Origin: an uncultured Lachnospiraceae bacterium
Lineage (GTDB): Bacteria; Bacillota; Clostridia; Lachnospirales; Lachnospiraceae
Assembly: GCA_947627245.1 (NCBI GenBank)
Contig: CANQVH010000031.1
Span: 1-41,380, forward strand
Length of the DNA: 41,380 nucleotides
Direction of reading: 5' to 3'
Position numbers and translations under genes: made by a program. Positions 8,022 to 14,554 of the stretch are shown here, piece after piece. Position 1 is the stretch's first letter. Each line of letters begins with the position of its first letter. The notes beneath the pieces are model-generated. The model was not told where the DNA came from and did no database searches. It saw only the letters and a list, made by a program, of their open reading frames with translations.

Positions 8022-9058
8022 GCTTTCTCCTTTCGCGCATCGCCCTCGGACTGCGCCGTTTCCTCAGAAGTTCCGTGCTCGTGCACACCGCGGATCACAA
8101 ACTGCGGGTTCCGGCTCATTCCTTGGAAGATCCTTCCCACGTACTCGCCCACCATTCCCATGAACAGCAGGTTGATGCCGGAGAAGAAACAGATCGCGGC
8201 CATCATCGACGGCCAGCCTATGTAAGTATACGGACGCACGATTTTCAGGATCACGACTCCGACCGCGCCCAGAATACCGAGTATAGAGAAGACAAAGCCG
8301 GTGTAGATCGCCATCTGCAACGGCACGATCGAAAATCCGATGATGTTCGACCAGAGCTGTACCAGCTTTTTGAATGTATAGTTCGAGGTGCCGACCTCCC
8401 GCTCGAAATGCTTGATCGGCACGGAGCTGATATTGCGCGTCGTCCGCAAAAACAGTCCCTGAATGTGGGTGTACGCGCTCTTGTACTGCACCGCGTAGTC
8501 TCGGACAAAGCGCCGGATGATCCAAAAGCTTGACGTGCGGAGATCCTTCGGCTTCTTCAGGAAAATGCGGAGCGTCATGTAGTTGACATAACTCCCGAAA
8601 TTCCGGAATTTGCTGTGCTTTTTCTCCGGATAATACCCGTACACGATGTCGTAGCCCTTTTCAAATTCCGCAAGCAGATACGGCAACTGCGAGGGATGCG
8701 TCTGCATATCGTCATCCATCGCGATGAACGCGTCGCCGTCCGCGTGGTTCAGACCGGCGAGCACGGCATTGTGCTGCCCGGCGTTCCGCGCAAGCTCCAC
8801 CGCCTTCACGCAGGGATAGTCCCGCACAAGGGAAAGTAACGCAGCCATCGTCTCTCCGCCATCCGGAGAACAATCGTCCACCAGAACAAATTCATAATCC
8901 TTTTTATTTAATTTTTCCATCTCCTGCATCGTCAGCTCCACCACCTTGCGGATCGTGGCGGAGGAACGATAGCACGGTATCACGATTGAATATTTCAAGA
9001 TTCTTCTCCCGCAGATTTTCTTCTGTTTTTCCTTCTGATGATCCATGTCACCAGACAT
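8018..9058 (-). CDS. CsbB-like family 2 glycosyltransferase (polyprenyl-phosphate sugar synthase)
   Basis: 346 residues. A GT2 catalytic domain opens with YSIVIPCYRS and carries DDCSPDGG (61-68) and the DDDMQTHP metal/nucleotide-sugar motif (115-122). Two membrane helices follow at about 249-272 and 282-304. This is the layout of DPM1/CsbB/GtrB proteins, which move a sugar from a nucleotide carrier to undecaprenyl phosphate on the cytoplasmic side. The gene upstream is a YfhO-family protein, the known partner of CsbB in Bacillus and Listeria. The reading frame starts 64 nt inside that gene. Neither ATG (9058 or 9046) has a strong ribosome site, so translation may be coupled. The sugar is unknown. 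Confidence 0.88.
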   Translation of the reverse strand: MSGDMDHQKEKQKKICGRRILKYSIVIPCYRSSATIRKVVELTMQEMEKLNKKDYEFVLVDDCSPDGGETMAALLSLVRDYPCVKAVELARNAGQHNAVLAGLNHADGDAFIAMDDDMQTHPSQLPYLLAEFEKGYDIVYGYYPEKKHSKFRNFGSYVNYMTLRIFLKKPKDLRTSSFWIIRRFVRDYAVQYKSAYTHIQGLFLRTTRNISSVPIKHFEREVGTSNYTFKKLVQLWSNIIGFSIVPLQMAIYTGFVFSILGILGAVGVVILKIVRPYTYIGWPSMMAAICFFSGINLLFMGMVGEYVGRIFQGMSRNPQFVIRGVHEHGTSEETAQSEGDARKEKA

Positions 9059-12000
9059 AATATAATAAATAATACACCCGCGCAGGGCATGATGACAAGC
9101 GCATATTTTACGCCCGGGATCGCGAACGTCAATTCGATCGTGTGCGTCCCCGCCTCGAGCGGCAGCGCCATATACGCGTAATTCGCCCGCACCGGCTCGG
9201 TCGGCTTCCCGTCCACCAGCGCGGTCCAGCCCTTCTGGTACGGGATGCTAAGCACCAGAATCTTATCCTCATCAAGAGCGATCTCGCCGCTGACCCTGTT
9301 CGTGTCAAGCGCGACCTGCTCAAGCGCATCCGCCGAGAGCTCCTGCGTGTATTCCTCCATGTTTTCCATAGATTGACAATAAATGGCAAGCTCCCCGAAT
9401 CGAAGCGTGTTCGTGCCCTGCAACTCAAGCATGCAGGAGGTGATCGCCTCCTCATGATAGCCGAGGTTGATGATGTAATCGTTCTGGTCGGTCTTGTAGC
9501 GGCCTTCGTCCGCCCGGAACGTATAGCTTGCAACGTCGCCGTTCACGGTCGCATAGAGATTCGCCGCCCCCTCCGGATCGTCCGTCTCCAGATGCACATC
9601 CCGAAGCACCAGATACGTCTCCGCGTTCGGCATTCCTTCAAAGCCAAGCTTGATACGGTGCCTTCTCCCCGCTTTGTCCGGGACAAGCGCGTTCTCCTCC
9701 ATATGGAGATACTTCTCCTTCTTCACGCTGGGCGTCTGGCGCTCGCCGGTGATCTGAAGCTCTGCATCGCCGGAGGATCCCGTGCCGTCAAGCATCACCT
9801 TCTGCAGAAGGATCTCCTGTCGTTCCTCCGCGGGATACTGCTCCAGCTCCTCCTCGGAGATCGTCTCCGTGTACGTGTATCCGAGCGGAAGCGCGTATTC
9901 GTTCTCACAGACGACGGTCTCCTTTCCGTCTACCTCCGTCCTCAGCACCTCTTCGCTGCCGCAGGGGAACGGACGGGGCTCGTCGGCAAACTCCGCATAA
10001 TACTTTACGGCGGCAGGCGCATGCAGCATCGCCCGGTTGCCGAATCCGCGGAACTGTACGGACGTATAGCTCGAACAGCCCATTTTTTTCATGTATTCTA
10101 CTTCGTTTCCGTTCAGGACGCTGGTTACCGTCGTGATCGGGTAAAAATCGAGCAACAAAGAAGCCGAGCTGGACAGATAATTCAGCTTCGGAGATGTCAC
10201 GCGGTAAAAGCTGTCGTCTTCGATCTCCGAGACCGCGGCGAGCGGCGTACCCGTGATCTCGCCCCGCGTCTCATCCCGATCCATATATCTGCTGACCTCC
10301 TGCCCGAGCATAAATTCCGTGAAACCCTGACTGAAAAGCATGCCGAACGTGAGCACAAGCATGAGCCCCTGCTTCATGCCCGGACTGATCCTCGGGTATT
10401 TTTCCTGACAGAAAACGAGCACCGCAAACGTGAGCGCAAGCTCGACAAAAGCGACCTTCGCAAACGGCGTGGCGCCGGTGATCTTCGCGTCCCCGACCAA
10501 GGCAAGGAATCCGTACAGCGCCACCGCTCCCGCGCAAATCCACAGGCTGCGCTTTTTCATCCGAAGCATATCCGGCAAACTGTCCGCGACAATGAACGCC
10601 ACCAAAAGCGATATGATATAACACCAGCGGTTTATGACCGAGCTGAAGCCGCTGAACACAAAGGCCACCAGCGGAAGCGCCATAAACACCACCGCGATCG
10701 CAAACAGGATCTTCTGCTCCTTTTTCTCCTTCTGCGTGTACAGGAACACGACCGCAAGCAGGGCGAGCGGCAGATAGCCCAGCCTCAGCGAATACCCGAG
10801 CGAGCTGAACGTCATGATAAAATTGAGGAAGCAGCCGACGAGCCACTGCCCGGAATAGAAAAACAGCGACGGCGTGCTGATCACGGCCGACTCACCGCGC
10901 GTCGAGCCGATGTAGGAGCCGAACGTCGTCACCAGAACGATGCAGGACATCGCCACTCCCAGCAGATACGAACCGCTGATCGTCAGCCCCTTTGCAAGAA
11001 AATTGCGGAACGTCCTGCGCTCTTTCTCCTGTTGGCAGAAAAACCGCACGAGAAAATAAACGCCCAAGGCGATCGTATTCATATAGAGGAAATAATAGTT
11101 GCTGAACAGCGAGACCGCGGTCAGAATCGTACACAGGTACCAGCGTTTGCCGCGCAGGATCTCCTCGATCGCGATCACCATCAGCGGCAGCGTGATCATC
11201 GGTATCATGAACATCGTGTGCTTCGCCCCTCCGTACAGCGCGAAGCCGCAGAAGATGTAGATCACGCTCCCCATGAACGCGGGGAAATAACTCTTTTTGA
11301 AATAGAAAAAGAGGACAGACGACGCGATCCCCGCCAGATAAAAGCGGAGCACCGTCACCAGATTGTAGGCAAACTCCATGTGCGCCTCGTCAAAAAGGGC
11401 GTGCAGGAAATAGAGCGGTTCAAAGGTATAGATGATCTCGGAACCCATTCCGTTCCGGAAGTCGTACATCGGAAGCGTAAAATTGCCATGAATCAGATTT
11501 GAGAACAAGTCCCGCATATATTCGCTGAAATAGACTGCCCGCGGGAAGTACTGAGTCACGCCGTCGCCCACCCACACAAAAGACTTGCCGAGCAGCAAAA
11601 ACGCGGAGAACACGATCGCCATCATCGGCAGGAACGCAAGCGTATATAAGAGGAAATATGTCGCCGTCTTGTGTTTGCGCGCCTCAAACCAGACCATGCC
11701 TCTCTCGCACACGCACCCGGTCAGTATCGTGAGCAAAACGACGAGATAGACCGCGAACGGGATTGCGGCGCAGGCCGCGAACAGCAGCTTGCCTCCCGCG
11801 CTGCCGAGCAGCTTCATCTCCCGCGCTGCCGCGACGGCGAAAACCAGCGCCGAAGAGACAAGGATCACAGGCTCCATGCTTATCCAGACAAAGCTCGCGG
11901 CCCGAACGCGCGGCGTGAGCTCCGACAGACCCTCCGCCGCGAGATAGAGCAGGTAGACCGGAAGGAAGGAAAGAACCACAACTCCCAGCGCCTTCATCGG

Positions 12001-12714
12001 CGAACGGCAGATCAGCAAAGCGGCCGCGCTGCACAGGGCTGTCACAGCGAGATAATTCCAACGAAATCCCGGGCGATGCTCCGCGAACCACATCCCCAGC
12101 AGGAAAAACGCAAAATACGGCACGATCGGCACGGCAGCCTGCCCGTCCGCGCCCAGAAAAGACGCGAGCAGCGGATAAGTCTCCCCGCGCACACGCAGCA
12201 GGGAACAGAGCAGACACAGCACACCCGCCACGAGGCAGGCGGTCTTCTGCCGCTCCATGGCGCGGCAAAAGCGCTCCGGCAGAGCGCCCGCCGCCAAAAG
12301 AACAAGCGCCAGCGAAAAGAACACCGCGGACGTGGACGGAATTCGATAGACCGTCAGCGCCGAGGTGATACTGTAGCCCCCGGAAAATCCGTTCTCCAGA
12401 AATCCCTGCGCCATCGCAAAGAGCAGGTAATACAGGCAGAACTTCGCGGCGTCTTTAAGCGCCGTCCGGCCTGCCTCCTTTATCCCCTCCTGCCACGCGT
12501 CCGCCAGAAAGCGATATCCGCAGCAGAAGAAAAAGCCCGGCACGAATATAAGCGAAAGGAGCTCGCCGATCCTTTGTATCGAATCGCTCCCACCCTCTTT
12601 GCCTGCCGCTATCTGCACGACCACAAACAGGAAGAAAACGCCGAACAAAAGGAAGTTCATTTCCCGGTCGCATCGATTCTGCCGCACTGTCGTCATTTTC
12701 TTCGCCATAGTCAT
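8995..12714 (-). CDS. YfhO-family membrane glycosyltransferase with an acyltransferase-3-like N-terminal half
   Basis: 1239 residues, longer than the usual YfhO of about 850-900. From about residue 360 onward it matches the YfhO plan: a first helix, an outside loop with GDGVTQYFPRAVYFSEYMRD, many helices, then a large extracytoplasmic C-terminal region with PYQKGWTALVDGKPT and a last helix with basic tail. The first 350 residues add about ten helices and resemble acyltransferase-3 proteins (SLIFVPGFFFCCGYRF, VPYFAFFLLGMWF), but the His expected in the first helix is missing. In Bacillus and Listeria YfhO transfers a sugar from undecaprenyl phosphate, made by CsbB, onto lipoteichoic acid. ATG at 12714 follows AGAGGAGAACCG. 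It lies 39 nt after mgtE and overlaps the GT2 gene by 64 nt. Confidence 0.85.
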   Translation of the reverse strand: MTMAKKMTTVRQNRCDREMNFLLFGVFFLFVVVQIAAGKEGGSDSIQRIGELLSLIFVPGFFFCCGYRFLADAWQEGIKEAGRTALKDAAKFCLYYLLFAMAQGFLENGFSGGYSITSALTVYRIPSTSAVFFSLALVLLAAGALPERFCRAMERQKTACLVAGVLCLLCSLLRVRGETYPLLASFLGADGQAAVPIVPYFAFFLLGMWFAEHRPGFRWNYLAVTALCSAAALLICRSPMKALGVVVLSFLPVYLLYLAAEGLSELTPRVRAASFVWISMEPVILVSSALVFAVAAAREMKLLGSAGGKLLFAACAAIPFAVYLVVLLTILTGCVCERGMVWFEARKHKTATYFLLYTLAFLPMMAIVFSAFLLLGKSFVWVGDGVTQYFPRAVYFSEYMRDLFSNLIHGNFTLPMYDFRNGMGSEIIYTFEPLYFLHALFDEAHMEFAYNLVTVLRFYLAGIASSVLFFYFKKSYFPAFMGSVIYIFCGFALYGGAKHTMFMIPMITLPLMVIAIEEILRGKRWYLCTILTAVSLFSNYYFLYMNTIALGVYFLVRFFCQQEKERRTFRNFLAKGLTISGSYLLGVAMSCIVLVTTFGSYIGSTRGESAVISTPSLFFYSGQWLVGCFLNFIMTFSSLGYSLRLGYLPLALLAVVFLYTQKEKKEQKILFAIAVVFMALPLVAFVFSGFSSVINRWCYIISLLVAFIVADSLPDMLRMKKRSLWICAGAVALYGFLALVGDAKITGATPFAKVAFVELALTFAVLVFCQEKYPRISPGMKQGLMLVLTFGMLFSQGFTEFMLGQEVSRYMDRDETRGEITGTPLAAVSEIEDDSFYRVTSPKLNYLSSSASLLLDFYPITTVTSVLNGNEVEYMKKMGCSSYTSVQFRGFGNRAMLHAPAAVKYYAEFADEPRPFPCGSEEVLRTEVDGKETVVCENEYALPLGYTYTETISEEELEQYPAEERQEILLQKVMLDGTGSSGDAELQITGERQTPSVKKEKYLHMEENALVPDKAGRRHRIKLGFEGMPNAETYLVLRDVHLETDDPEGAANLYATVNGDVASYTFRADEGRYKTDQNDYIINLGYHEEAITSCMLELQGTNTLRFGELAIYCQSMENMEEYTQELSADALEQVALDTNRVSGEIALDEDKILVLSIPYQKGWTALVDGKPTEPVRANYAYMALPLEAGTHTIELTFAIPGVKYALVIMPCAGVLFIILCLVTWIIRRKNRRKSAGEES

Positions 12715-12753: not shown

Positions 12754-14100
12754 CTATATTCCAAGCAGCCGCGTCGCGATCTGGAAATAGATCACCAGCG
12801 AGATCGCGTCCACGATCGTCGTGATGAACGGACTCGCCATGACCGCCGGGTCGAAGCCCGCCTGCTTTGCAAGCATCGGCAGGAGGCAGCCCACCATCTT
12901 CGCGACGATCACCGTCACGACCATCGTAAGGCAGACGACAAGCGCCACCTGCATCCCGACATGATCCAGCCAGAGCAACTTGCCGAAATTCACCACGGCC
13001 AATGTGGCACCGCAGAGCACCGCCACGCGGATCTCCTTCCAGATAATCTTCAAAGTGTCCCGGAACTCGATCTCGCCGAGCGAAATGCTTCGGATGATCG
13101 TGACGGACGCCTGTCCTCCGGCATTTCCGCCGGTATCCATAAACATCGGTATATACATCGTGAGCACGGCATAGCGCGCAAGCGCGTTCTGATAACCCTG
13201 AATGATCTTCCCGGTGAACGTCGCCGAGATCATCAGGAACAAAAGCCACGGAATGCGCTTCCGGAACGTCTCGGTCACGGAGGTCTTCATATACGACTTG
13301 TCGGTCGGCGTGATAGCCGCCATCTTCTCGATATCCTCCGTCGCCTCCTGCTCGATGATATCCATGACGTCGTCGACCGTGATGATGCCGACAAGACGGT
13401 TCTCGCTGTCCACGACCGGCATCGCGTCGAAGTCGTACTTCTGGAACTGACGGGCCACTTCCTCTTGGTCCATCATCGTGTTGATCGTGATGACGTTCTC
13501 CTCCATCAGATCGCCGATCTTCTCCTCCGGCTGGCTCAGCAACAGCATACGCAGCGAGATCGTGCCCCGGATCTTGCGATTCTGATTGATCACGTAGCAC
13601 GTATTAATCGTCTCTTTGTCGATCCCGGTCCGGCGGATCCGCTCGATCGCCTGCCCGACCGTGTATTCTTCCTTCAGGTCGACGTACTCAACCGTCATCA
13701 CGCTTCCGGCGGAATCCTCCGGATACTGAAGCAGATGATTGATATCCCGTCTCGTCTCCGGCGTCGTCTGCGCGAGCAGCCGTTTGACGACGCCCGCCGG
13801 CATCTCTTCCATCAGGTCGGAAGCGTCGTCGGCATACAGATTGTCGATGATGTTCGCGGCCTCCCTCTCCGTCAGCGACGTGATGATCTTGCGCTCCACC
13901 TCGATCGGCAGATGAGAAAACACGTCCGCCGCGATCGCCTTAGGCAGAATGCGGAACACCTTCAACTGGTCGTTCTCGGAGCCCTCAAGCCCCTCAAGCA
14001 TGTCTGCGATATCCGCCTCATTCATGTCCATGACCTCGCTGCGGATCTTCGCATACTGCTTATGCTCGATACATTCCTTTAATGTCTCTAAATCCAGCAT
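12754..14100 (-). CDS. mgtE: Magnesium transporter MgtE
   Basis: Mg2+ channel/transporter of the inner membrane, 448 residues, the family's usual length. Seen in order: the N domain of helical repeats (about 1-130), two CBS domains (about 135-255, with FDAMPVVDSENRLVGIITVDDVMD), a connecting helix and five membrane helices. The selectivity-region signature PMFMDTGGNAGGQ sits near residue 315. In the family the cytosolic N and CBS domains bind Mg2+ and close the pore. ATG at 14100 has a strong ribosome site (AAGGAGGTATGTC). A short upstream ORF overlaps the first 41 nt in another frame. Downstream the YfhO-like gene starts after 39 nt with no terminator, so mgtE and the glycosyltransferase genes probably share a transcript, an unexpected pairing. 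Confidence 0.96.
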   Translation of the reverse strand: MLDLETLKECIEHKQYAKIRSEVMDMNEADIADMLEGLEGSENDQLKVFRILPKAIAADVFSHLPIEVERKIITSLTEREAANIIDNLYADDASDLMEEMPAGVVKRLLAQTTPETRRDINHLLQYPEDSAGSVMTVEYVDLKEEYTVGQAIERIRRTGIDKETINTCYVINQNRKIRGTISLRMLLLSQPEEKIGDLMEENVITINTMMDQEEVARQFQKYDFDAMPVVDSENRLVGIITVDDVMDIIEQEATEDIEKMAAITPTDKSYMKTSVTETFRKRIPWLLFLMISATFTGKIIQGYQNALARYAVLTMYIPMFMDTGGNAGGQASVTIIRSISLGEIEFRDTLKIIWKEIRVAVLCGATLAVVNFGKLLWLDHVGMQVALVVCLTMVVTVIVAKMVGCLLPMLAKQAGFDPAVMASPFITTIVDAISLVIYFQIATRLLGI

Positions 14101-14179
14101 GACATACCTCCTTGTGTGCAGTTTTTATGAGGGGATCAGGCCCTGATGCGTCCGCTGTGTTCGTCGTACTTCGCGTCAT
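14060..14179 (-). CDS. Putative 39-residue mgtE leader peptide
   Basis: A short ORF starts at an ATG (14179) preceded by AAAGGTGGTGG with 5 nt between, and ends with TAA at 14060, overlapping the mgtE start by 41 nt in another frame. The peptide contains ASGPDPLIK at residues 11-19. Proline-acidic runs of this kind destabilise translating ribosomes at low Mg2+ in the enterobacterial leader MgtL (EPDPTP). The start codon lies in the left arm of a perfect 10-bp inverted repeat whose right arm ends 6 nt before the mgtE ribosome site. The ribosome site, position and motif support translation; the function is inferred. It could also be a chance ORF in a structured leader. Confidence 0.45.
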   Translation of the reverse strand: MTRSTTNTADASGPDPLIKTAHKEVCHAGFRDIKGMYRA

Positions 14180-14185
14180 AAAAAC
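14121..14185 (-). promoter_or_regulatory. Inverted-repeat leader structure before mgtE
   Basis: GTTTTTATGA (14176-14185 on the minus strand) and TCATAAAAAC (14121-14130) are perfect complements. They enclose 45 nt that contain the near-palindrome ATCAGGGCCTGAT (14135-14147). Folding would bury the AUG of the short ORF and bring its region next to the AAGGAGG of mgtE. It does not look like the M-box riboswitch known for Firmicute mgtE genes. Confidence 0.55.
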
Positions 14186-14231
14186 CACCACCTTTCGTAT
14201 GTCATGAAAAATCGTCAGAAACCCTTATGAC

Positions 14232-14276
14232 AAAAAAGAGCTGCGCAAAACCGGGTATCCGGCCCTGCAACAGCCC
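14232..14276 (-). terminator. Intrinsic terminator (or attenuator) between the small membrane gene and mgtE
   Basis: On the minus strand: GGGCUG, a two-base bulge, GCAGGGCCGG, loop AUAC, CCGGUUUUGC, G, CAGCUC, then six U. This is about 16 base pairs (some G-U) followed by a U tract. It is 26 nt after the stop of the 83-residue gene. As I see no good promoter between it and mgtE, it could also be an attenuator that decides read-through into mgtE. Confidence 0.75.
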
Positions 14277-14302
14277 TGATCGACAAAATGATCGTCCCGG
14301 AA

Positions 14303-14554
14303 CTACTCAAGATCCAGCGTATCCATAAAATCATCGATCGCCGTAGTATCAACCGTATAGGTCGGCTTCTCGGCCGGCGTCGTGTCCGCCGGATTCAGGG
14401 TATTGTATATGGAAAATCCTACCCATGCCACCATGACAAGCGCTACCAGCGACATGCCTGCTTTCATAGCCATCCATTCTCTTTTTTGCTTTTTGATGAT
14501 CTGCGCGCGATTGCGCTTCTCTTCCTTATATCGGTCAACCTTAGCCTGACTCAT
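14303..14554 (-). CDS. Small single-pass membrane protein, unknown function
   Basis: 83 residues. A very basic N-terminus (VDRYKEEKRNRAQIIKKQ, about 6-23) is followed by one hydrophobic helix at about 33-50 (MSLVALVMVAWVGFSIY) and a short acidic C-terminus. The positive-inside rule puts the N-terminus in the cytoplasm and the tail outside. Proteins of this type (charged N-terminus, one helix ending WVGFSIY) are common in Lachnospiraceae genomes, from memory, without an assigned role. ATG at 14554 follows AGAAGGAGAGATACGC. A promoter candidate stands at 14644-14671 and a strong terminator follows, so it may be a single-gene unit. Confidence 0.75.
   Translation of the reverse strand: MSQAKVDRYKEEKRNRAQIIKKQKREWMAMKAGMSLVALVMVAWVGFSIYNTLNPADTTPAEKPTYTVDTTAIDDFMDTLDLE

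Follow-up and report, generated by a model that had tools for sequence, protein, structure and literature searches.

A conserved leader peptide and two nested stems at the start of mgtE in Lachnospiraceae: a candidate translation attenuator

Introduction

The M-box (ykoK, RF00380) is a known Mg2+-sensing RNA of Firmicute Mg2+ transporter genes. In erm/cat-type attenuators, which antibiotics set off, the behaviour of the ribosome on a leader opens a stem that hides the next start. For MgtL (E. coli, Salmonella), the part of the published account used here states that ribosome drop-off at EPDP in low Mg2+ turns mgtA on (PMC11282234). The cited section of a Salmonella study describes mgtQ as a translation-aborting ORF before mgtB, where the ORF and stems set access to the mgtB ribosome site (PMC8092293). 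In the excerpt of PMC12810186 considered here, the B. subtilis ykoK M-box is named and an M. tuberculosis Mbox riboswitch is said to control the uORF rv1805A. The mgtE motif SRC-65-1, in the cited part of its description, is limited to Thioalkalivibrio and reported as a riboswitch candidate (PMC11109978).

We analysed a 41,380-nucleotide stretch of DNA from an uncultured Lachnospiraceae bacterium (contig CANQVH010000031.1; here called the window), in which a short leader ORF with two stems lies at the start of mgtE. By kinship the window lies in a Lachnospiraceae genome; in our named collection (the best 80 of 234 relatives) the closest MgtE proteins, at 95% identity, are those of uncultured Lachnospiraceae 'Lapin' isolates. 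Unlike in the erm/cat attenuators, the leader start itself sits in a stem, and unlike the genes under M-box control, neither the window nor 47 genomes of the same genus gave a match to RF00380 (strict filters).

With MgtL the element shares a short ORF with acidic and Pro residues before the gene of a Mg2+ importer; it differs in phylum, transporter and peptide, with mgtE here and mgtA there. EPDP stands at residues 2–5 of MgtL (Pro 3–5; K-12 record), whereas the first core Pro of the leaders described here stands at residues 10–20 (median 14, 81 leaders), and MgtL works through Rho termination, whereas the present element, by its anatomy, would act on translation start. A resemblance of D-x-P-L-P-R in loci L075, L123 and L136 to the DPTPLPR of MgtL was seen by eye only. 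Identity with MgtL was rejected, since the acid-Pro position and the downstream gene differ. Translation-level control by a short ORF and stems is shared with mgtQ, which the cited part of its description sets apart by 8 codons, Asp2 and Glu5, two alternative stems and a place within an operon. SRC-65-1 likewise has a stem with the ribosome site and start codon region of mgtE at its foot and is set apart by its description, the cited part of which mentions no upstream ORF (PMC11109978). The M. tuberculosis Mbox/rv1805A system, in the excerpt referred to above, is alike in its Mg2+-linked RNA control of a small upstream ORF and unlike in its M-box, which was not found here.

Results

Two nested stems enclose the leader and mgtE starts

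A first-pass annotation of the window had placed a 39-codon ORF with its own ribosome site over the mgtE start, Gly-Pro-Asp-Pro at residues 13–16 of its peptide, and the leader start within a perfect 10-bp repeat. All of these are present, with the ORF at 14179–14060 on the minus strand:

12754..14100, minus strand: mgtE, 448 aa, with MgtE_N, CBS and MgtE domains; the presumed regulated gene
14060..14179, minus strand: leader ORF, ATG at 14179 and stop at 14060; 39 codons plus stop
14185..14195, minus strand: leader ribosome site, AAAGGTGGTGG, 5 nt 5' of the leader ATG
14132..14152, minus strand: peptide-core codons D10-A11-S12-G13-P14-D15-P16, the window's version of a D-x-P core
14176..14185, minus strand: stem P2, 5' arm, GTTTTTATGA, containing the leader ATG
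14121..14130, minus strand: stem P2, 3' arm, TCATAAAAAC, beginning right behind the core codons
14197..14206, minus strand: stem P1, 5' arm, CATGACATAC, just upstream of the leader ribosome site
14098..14107, minus strand: stem P1, 3' arm, GTATGTCATG, containing the mgtE start codon
14107..14113, minus strand: mgtE ribosome site, AAGGAGG, between P2 and P1

The leader peptide of the window is MTRSTTNTADASGPDPLIKTAHKEVCHAGFRDIKGMYRA (39 aa; the ORF listing starts it at an upstream GTG instead, which gives 43 aa), and the leader overlaps the first 41 nt of mgtE, whose ATG is at 14100. P2 is the perfect 10-bp inverted repeat (14121–14130 / 14176–14185), and its 3' arm ends 7 nt before the mgtE AAGGAGG. 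P1, overlooked in the first-pass annotation, is a second perfect 10-bp pair (14098–14107 / 14197–14206) that closes over the mgtE start. Together they are predicted to form one long hairpin with the mgtE start in the outer stem P1, the leader start and part of the leader ribosome site in the inner stem P2, and both ribosome sites (AAAGGTGGTGG and AAGGAGG) between the stems. The 223-nt region 14080–14302 folds at −79.2 kcal/mol (z −4.2), and none of 200 shuffles was as low. Because the fold is unusual and the frame, the stems and the peptide core are kept in relatives, we regard the leader and stems as more than chance.

The only MgtE-family match in the window's genome is mgtE itself. Upstream of it lies an 83-aa ORF (14303–14554, minus strand) that matches no Pfam family and, judged by eye, probably has a single membrane segment. 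This ORF is followed by a terminator-like hairpin with a T run (14269–14244, minus strand); sequence resembling this hairpin was seen by eye in relatives L003 and L026. Downstream, the gene for a 1239-aa YfhO-family membrane protein (8995–12714, minus strand) starts 39 nt after mgtE and is possibly co-transcribed with it.

The leader is kept at most mgtE loci of the genus and many beyond it

Loci were fetched by MgtE protein similarity and a leader was then sought upstream of mgtE; these searches demanded a G-rich ribosome site, to which the genus search added most of the 5' arm. An MgtE-like match was found in 44 of 47 genus genomes. Of the 24 genus loci with at least 67% MgtE identity and the mgtE start on the contig (window counted), 22 have a leader, the two without it being L024 and L025, and the distant genus MgtE loci L028–L031 (<30% identity) gave no match to the leader model. 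In the named collection, 76 loci from the best 80 of 234 relatives were assessable: 56 carry the leader and 20 are leaderless. Seventeen of the 56 (L040–L056) are genus loci again, leaving 39 of 59 outside the genus (from the same best 80 of 234), mostly in Lachnospiraceae. Among the genomes with a leader are Parablautia, Eisenbergiella porci, E. tayi, Lacrimispora saccharolytica An861, Candidatus Choladousia, Candidatus Colinaster and numerous genomes from rumen and gut, all but a few of them titled Lachnospiraceae.

Loci with the mgtE start off the contig (L023, L027, L094, L118) or with only 29 or 182 nt upstream (L103, L112) were left out, and L111, a false ORF match, was counted as leaderless. 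Leaders called distinct are distinct in sequence and not independent, many being close kin. The G-rich ribosome site 5' of the leader start recurs in our alignments A1 and A2 (GGCAGGTGG in L064), which is not independent evidence because the search for leaders relied in part on a site of this kind. Since the sequences further upstream differ between loci, the leader appears to move together with mgtE. At L140, the gene upstream of the leader-mgtE pair (from ~794) resembles the YigZ/IMPACT family by eye.

At the leaderless loci, the covariance model R1 (P2 plus loop) found no leader further upstream, a weak negative because R1 also missed 4 of 15 known leaders (L066, L076, L083, L117). Some leaderless mgtE genes closely follow another ORF.

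The peptide is constrained up to an Asp-Pro core

Peptides were counted over 81 distinct leaders, 65 from MgtE-fetched or pattern-found loci and 16 from model searches. Asp or Glu followed within four residues by Pro occurs in 80 of the 81, against a mean of 37.5 in shuffled peptides (maximum 48, 200 rounds); the rule is loose, as nearly half of the shuffled peptides pass it and so do two unrelated model matches. In 78 leaders the core continues with a second Pro two residues on, or with Arg or Lys within four. Its forms include DVPGPDP, DVPGPWP, DVPLPSSGS, DVPGRSC, DVPVPGRS, DIPPHERS, DNPLPRSRS, DPAPGRS, DSVPRST and DDLHPRS. The peptide encoded by the loop is short, rich in Ser and Thr and mostly basic, with Asp-Pro at its core; the net charge before the core has a median of +2, with 16 of 80 leaders at zero or below.

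GPDP, singled out in the first-pass annotation, was rejected as the functional motif: it occurs in 11 of 22 genus leaders and in none of 59 elsewhere, so it is one lineage's form of the wider D-x-P core; the constant feature is the acidic residue with Pro within four. The ORF, its frame and the repeat are kept in relatives with third-position changes. P-D/E-P is found in 13 of the 81. PxP occurs in 22/22 genus leaders and 30/59 elsewhere, whereas Pro followed by an Arg-Ser-like sequence occurs in 0/22 and 40/59.

Such a composition could belong to a charged-tRNA attenuator, in which the ribosome, slowed at Pro (or Arg) codons, would report on amino acids or EF-P and not on Mg2+; reporting of this kind is stated for MgtP of Salmonella in the cited part of PMC8092293. 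Pro is present in 80 of 81 leaders, PxP in 52, and Pro followed by Arg within four residues in 46. Adjacent Pro pairs, however, occur in only 6 of 81, some cores hold a single Pro (e.g. DVPGRSC), and the gene encodes a Mg2+ channel and not an amino-acid function, which makes this explanation distinctly unlikely.

Constraint on the amino acids was measured against column shuffles of the alignment, which preserve relatedness and composition. In a 6-codon core test of 63 of the 65 leaders (L064 and L110, without a core by its rule, were dropped), the in-frame mean BLOSUM score was 2.42 versus 0.29 in shuffles (0/500 reach it); for a block of the 22 genus leaders it was 3.68 versus 1.63 (0/500). 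In the genus leaders the later two Pro codons are invariant at the first two bases and variable at the third. The codon right after them encodes ten different residues and always ends in C, with which the CATAAAA arm of P2 begins. By these comparisons, selection acts on the amino acids of the ORF as far as the core, with RNA constraint beyond it. Judged from the codon-phase constraint, the leader, a short ORF ahead of a Mg2+ transporter gene, is apparently translated.

Amino-acid selection on the N-terminal half would also be expected if the leader were a working small protein, for example one that binds MgtE. The half after the core, in contrast, differs widely between lineages and shares its sequence with the P2 arm and the mgtE ribosome site, and in L037 an extra base after Pro-Leu-Pro shifts the frame and places the still intact P2 arm in another one. 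A working protein is therefore very improbable. Since 49 of 57 leaders hold the P2 arm in one same reading frame, the frame past the core may be under some constraint too, while the RNA there is clearly constrained. Fixed spacing offers no evidence for a pause site, because the distances from ATG to Pro and from Pro to the P2 arm vary alike (sd 4.0 and 4.7 nt, 55 leaders).

Both stems are under selection for pairing

P2 was assessed by counting pairs in A2, 37 diverse leaders chosen by hand from the 65 distinct ones; A1 was not used for P2 conservation because six of its loci came from a pattern that required the P2 arms. In A2, 95.7% of P2 cells are paired (88.7% in shuffles), 27 cells are changed on both sides (5.9 in shuffles) and the covariation score is 0.322 (0.192 in shuffles), each value lying above all 500 shuffles; A2 leans towards P2, because its rows were cut by the best predicted P2 stem and it holds six pattern-found loci (L034–L039). 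Less extreme were the number of pairs with a double change (5 versus 2.7, reached by 17 of 500 shuffles) and the number of pair types (14 versus 12.4, reached by 66 of 500). Sliding the partner of P2 lowered pairing to 44–67%. The arm pairs differ in sequence, as in GTGGTTTTTATG/CATAAAAATCAC (L035), GATCAATATG/CATATTGATC (L061), GTGATTAATATG/CATATTAATCAC (L095) and GTGGTTTTAAATG/CATTTAAAATCAC (L064). Swapping P2 arms between loci put 14 of 51 native pairs in the best 10%, a test that is weak for P2 because most of its arms are alike, which is why pair counting was used instead.

For P1 the swap test covered 51 of the 65 leaders (50 in the test of folding states described below), those with other spacing being left out. 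Native arms paired at −13.7 kcal/mol versus −8.7 for swapped ones, and 38 of 51 loci lay in the best 10%; control windows 30, 60 and 90 nt upstream gave 10, 8 and 5 of 51. Examples are CATGACATAC/GTATGTCATG (window), CATAGCAAA/TTTGCTATG (L010) and CATAGTTAA/TTAACTATG (L014). On this comparative evidence both stems are under selection for pairing, and the conserved stem P1 hides the downstream (mgtE) start, as the stem of a translation attenuator does.

Covariation of both stems is also what would be seen in an RNA-only switch, in which Mg2+ (or temperature) melts or stabilises P1 and P2 directly and the ORF is incidental. Locus L110 (about 2800–2877) fits such a switch in that P2 is kept there with different bases over an ORF without the acid-Pro core; it represents either decay or an RNA-only version. 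An incidental ORF, however, agrees poorly with the codon-phase constraint and with an acid-Pro core in 80 of 81 leaders, and, in contrast to an aptamer, the variation outside the stems and ribosome sites falls at third codon positions. Promoter-like sites, moreover, are often close to the leader (below). We consider an RNA-only switch unlikely.

The element is nearly specific to mgtE

A strict pattern search of 397 family genomes, which was not tied to MgtE, gave 8 matches, all 8 before mgtE. R1, likewise run without reference to MgtE, matched in at least 12 of 200 family genomes (11 of the 12 before mgtE) and in at least 15 of 295 genomes of the order (12 of the 15), the window being in both sets; these are lower bounds because the filters were strict and 15–23 candidates were scored per genome. 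The matches without mgtE were L130 (both sets), L139 and L144, the last two being the only R1 matches outside the family. As elements before other genes they were rejected by eye as false positives: L130 lacks Pro, the L139 match opens an ORF of more than 100 codons, and L139 and L144 pass only the loose acid-Pro rule. Within the genomes searched, the element thus occurs almost only before mgtE.

Over the 81 loci, sigma-70-like sites end 20–55 nt before the leader ATG in 26 and 56–90 nt before it in 24, and the next three 35-nt bins upstream hold 10, 4 and 1 (raw counts). A promoter-like site lies 20–75 nt before the leader ATG at 42 of 81 loci; in these, about half of the copies, the element would account for nearly the whole 5' UTR. 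Near the leader of the window, no promoter-like site was found.

Among 25 leader-bearing genomes, one has an M-box, on another contig. The Rfam scan of the window returned nothing at the gathering score and only chance-like matches below it, and the M-box or another Rfam family was set aside as the identity of the element. Upstream of leaderless mgtE genes, scanned at the gathering score in 19 of the 20 leaderless loci and L112 (L111 excluded), no Rfam family was found; the sole match in that scan was a lysine riboswitch after mgtE in L116.

Natural variants

In L017 (the same locus as L051) an insert of ~200 nt with inverted-repeat ends, flanked by copies of TAGCCATT (both by eye; about 2770–2960 in L051), cuts the leader off from mgtE. 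It has 12 further partial matches in its genome, 13 full or partial in all, and is therefore probably a small mobile element. L017 keeps the leader core and P2, the latter now with two G-U pairs.

In the non-overlapping versions L066, L077, L092 and L115, another hairpin is predicted before mgtE. A sub-group (L066, L076, L083, L106, L115, L117) has (D)SVPRST-type leaders that stop before mgtE, and the four of these that were folded (L066, L106, L115, L117) have a second hairpin before the mgtE ribosome site. At L068 a terminator-like hairpin with a T run was seen by eye between the leader stop and mgtE, from which some lineages may use the leader for transcription attenuation.

A proposed mechanism

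We propose that the element is a cis-acting leader-peptide translation attenuator of mgtE, probably responding to low Mg2+ by way of ribosomes that pause or drop off at the D-P core; we put the probability of this reading at roughly 0.6. The anatomy is well supported; the signal, the direction and the last step of the mechanism are inferred, and MgtL and mgtQ supply the logic. We take mgtE to be on at low Mg2+ because MgtE is an importer.

At low Mg2+, ribosomes would pause or drop off at the Asp-Pro core. Positioned there, a ribosome would cover the 3' arm of P2, so that the leader ribosome site would stay open and loading would go on, and repeated loading at the leader would keep the adjoining 5' arm of P1 busy and allow mgtE to be translated. 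With ample Mg2+, ribosomes would run through the core and, in most copies, past the mgtE start to a stop inside mgtE; after such smooth passage P2 and P1 would refold and mgtE expression would be low.

When a ribosome on the core was simulated by masking, the leader start became free in the fold calculations in 42 of 50 loci (median unpaired 0.14 to 0.42). The same mask frees the mgtE start in only 5 of 50 loci, and in 12 of 50 if the leader start carries a second ribosome, so the last step would rely on steric blocking outside the fold calculation. It is because the core mask alone seldom frees the mgtE start that we propose a paused ribosome holding P2 open together with repeated loading.

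Of 65 distinct leaders, 53 end beyond the mgtE start, as they would under translational coupling alone, with leader translation opening P1 for the mgtE start and no sensing by the peptide. On that explanation, however, it is hard to place a core that is conserved while the later part differs, a stop that may fall anywhere from +16 to +131 nt, and the existence of non-overlapping versions; we judge coupling alone to be quite improbable. In the other 12 of 65 leaders the stop precedes the called mgtE start, so running over that start is not universal, although in L062, non-overlapping by call, the mgtE start is probably miscalled. For the attenuator that we favour, the output step may vary by lineage.

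Discussion

The first-pass annotation had also suggested that ribosome behaviour on the leader could control mgtE, and the conserved anatomy, found without an M-box, fits that suggestion. In its working the element appears to resemble the Mg2+ leader peptides and translation attenuators, yet it is neither an MgtL nor an M-box. Among the matches listed by a literature search that lay mostly outside subscription papers and preprints, none described a leader peptide before a Firmicute mgtE.

More tentatively, the element may be a nascent-peptide Mg2+ sensor that arose independently of the enterobacterial MgtL, in another phylum and on another transporter family, and that stands in for the M-box in many Lachnospiraceae. 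We regard this as possible, at somewhat under even odds. The peptide would then have converged on an acidic residue with prolines spaced behind it and in many cases an arginine (D-N-P-L-P-R in L123 and L136, D-P-T-P-L-P-R in MgtL), at which the ribosome would hesitate or split when Mg2+ is short, and the two-stem RNA controlling both starts would be the readout.

The element is a testable system, with a short natural sequence, a defined peptide core and two stems with natural compensatory changes, and loci in which the core is missing, an insertion separates the leader from mgtE or the frame changes behind the core offer ready-made natural test cases. Ribosome-based Mg2+-sensing leader peptides have been described for enterobacterial transporters; the element suggests that the same principle is at work in a major gut Firmicute family, on MgtE, and in a genus whose genomes gave no match to the usual M-box. 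As the leader start and the mgtE start can each be locked in a stem, ribosomes reading the leader probably decide how much MgtE channel is made in many gut Lachnospiraceae.
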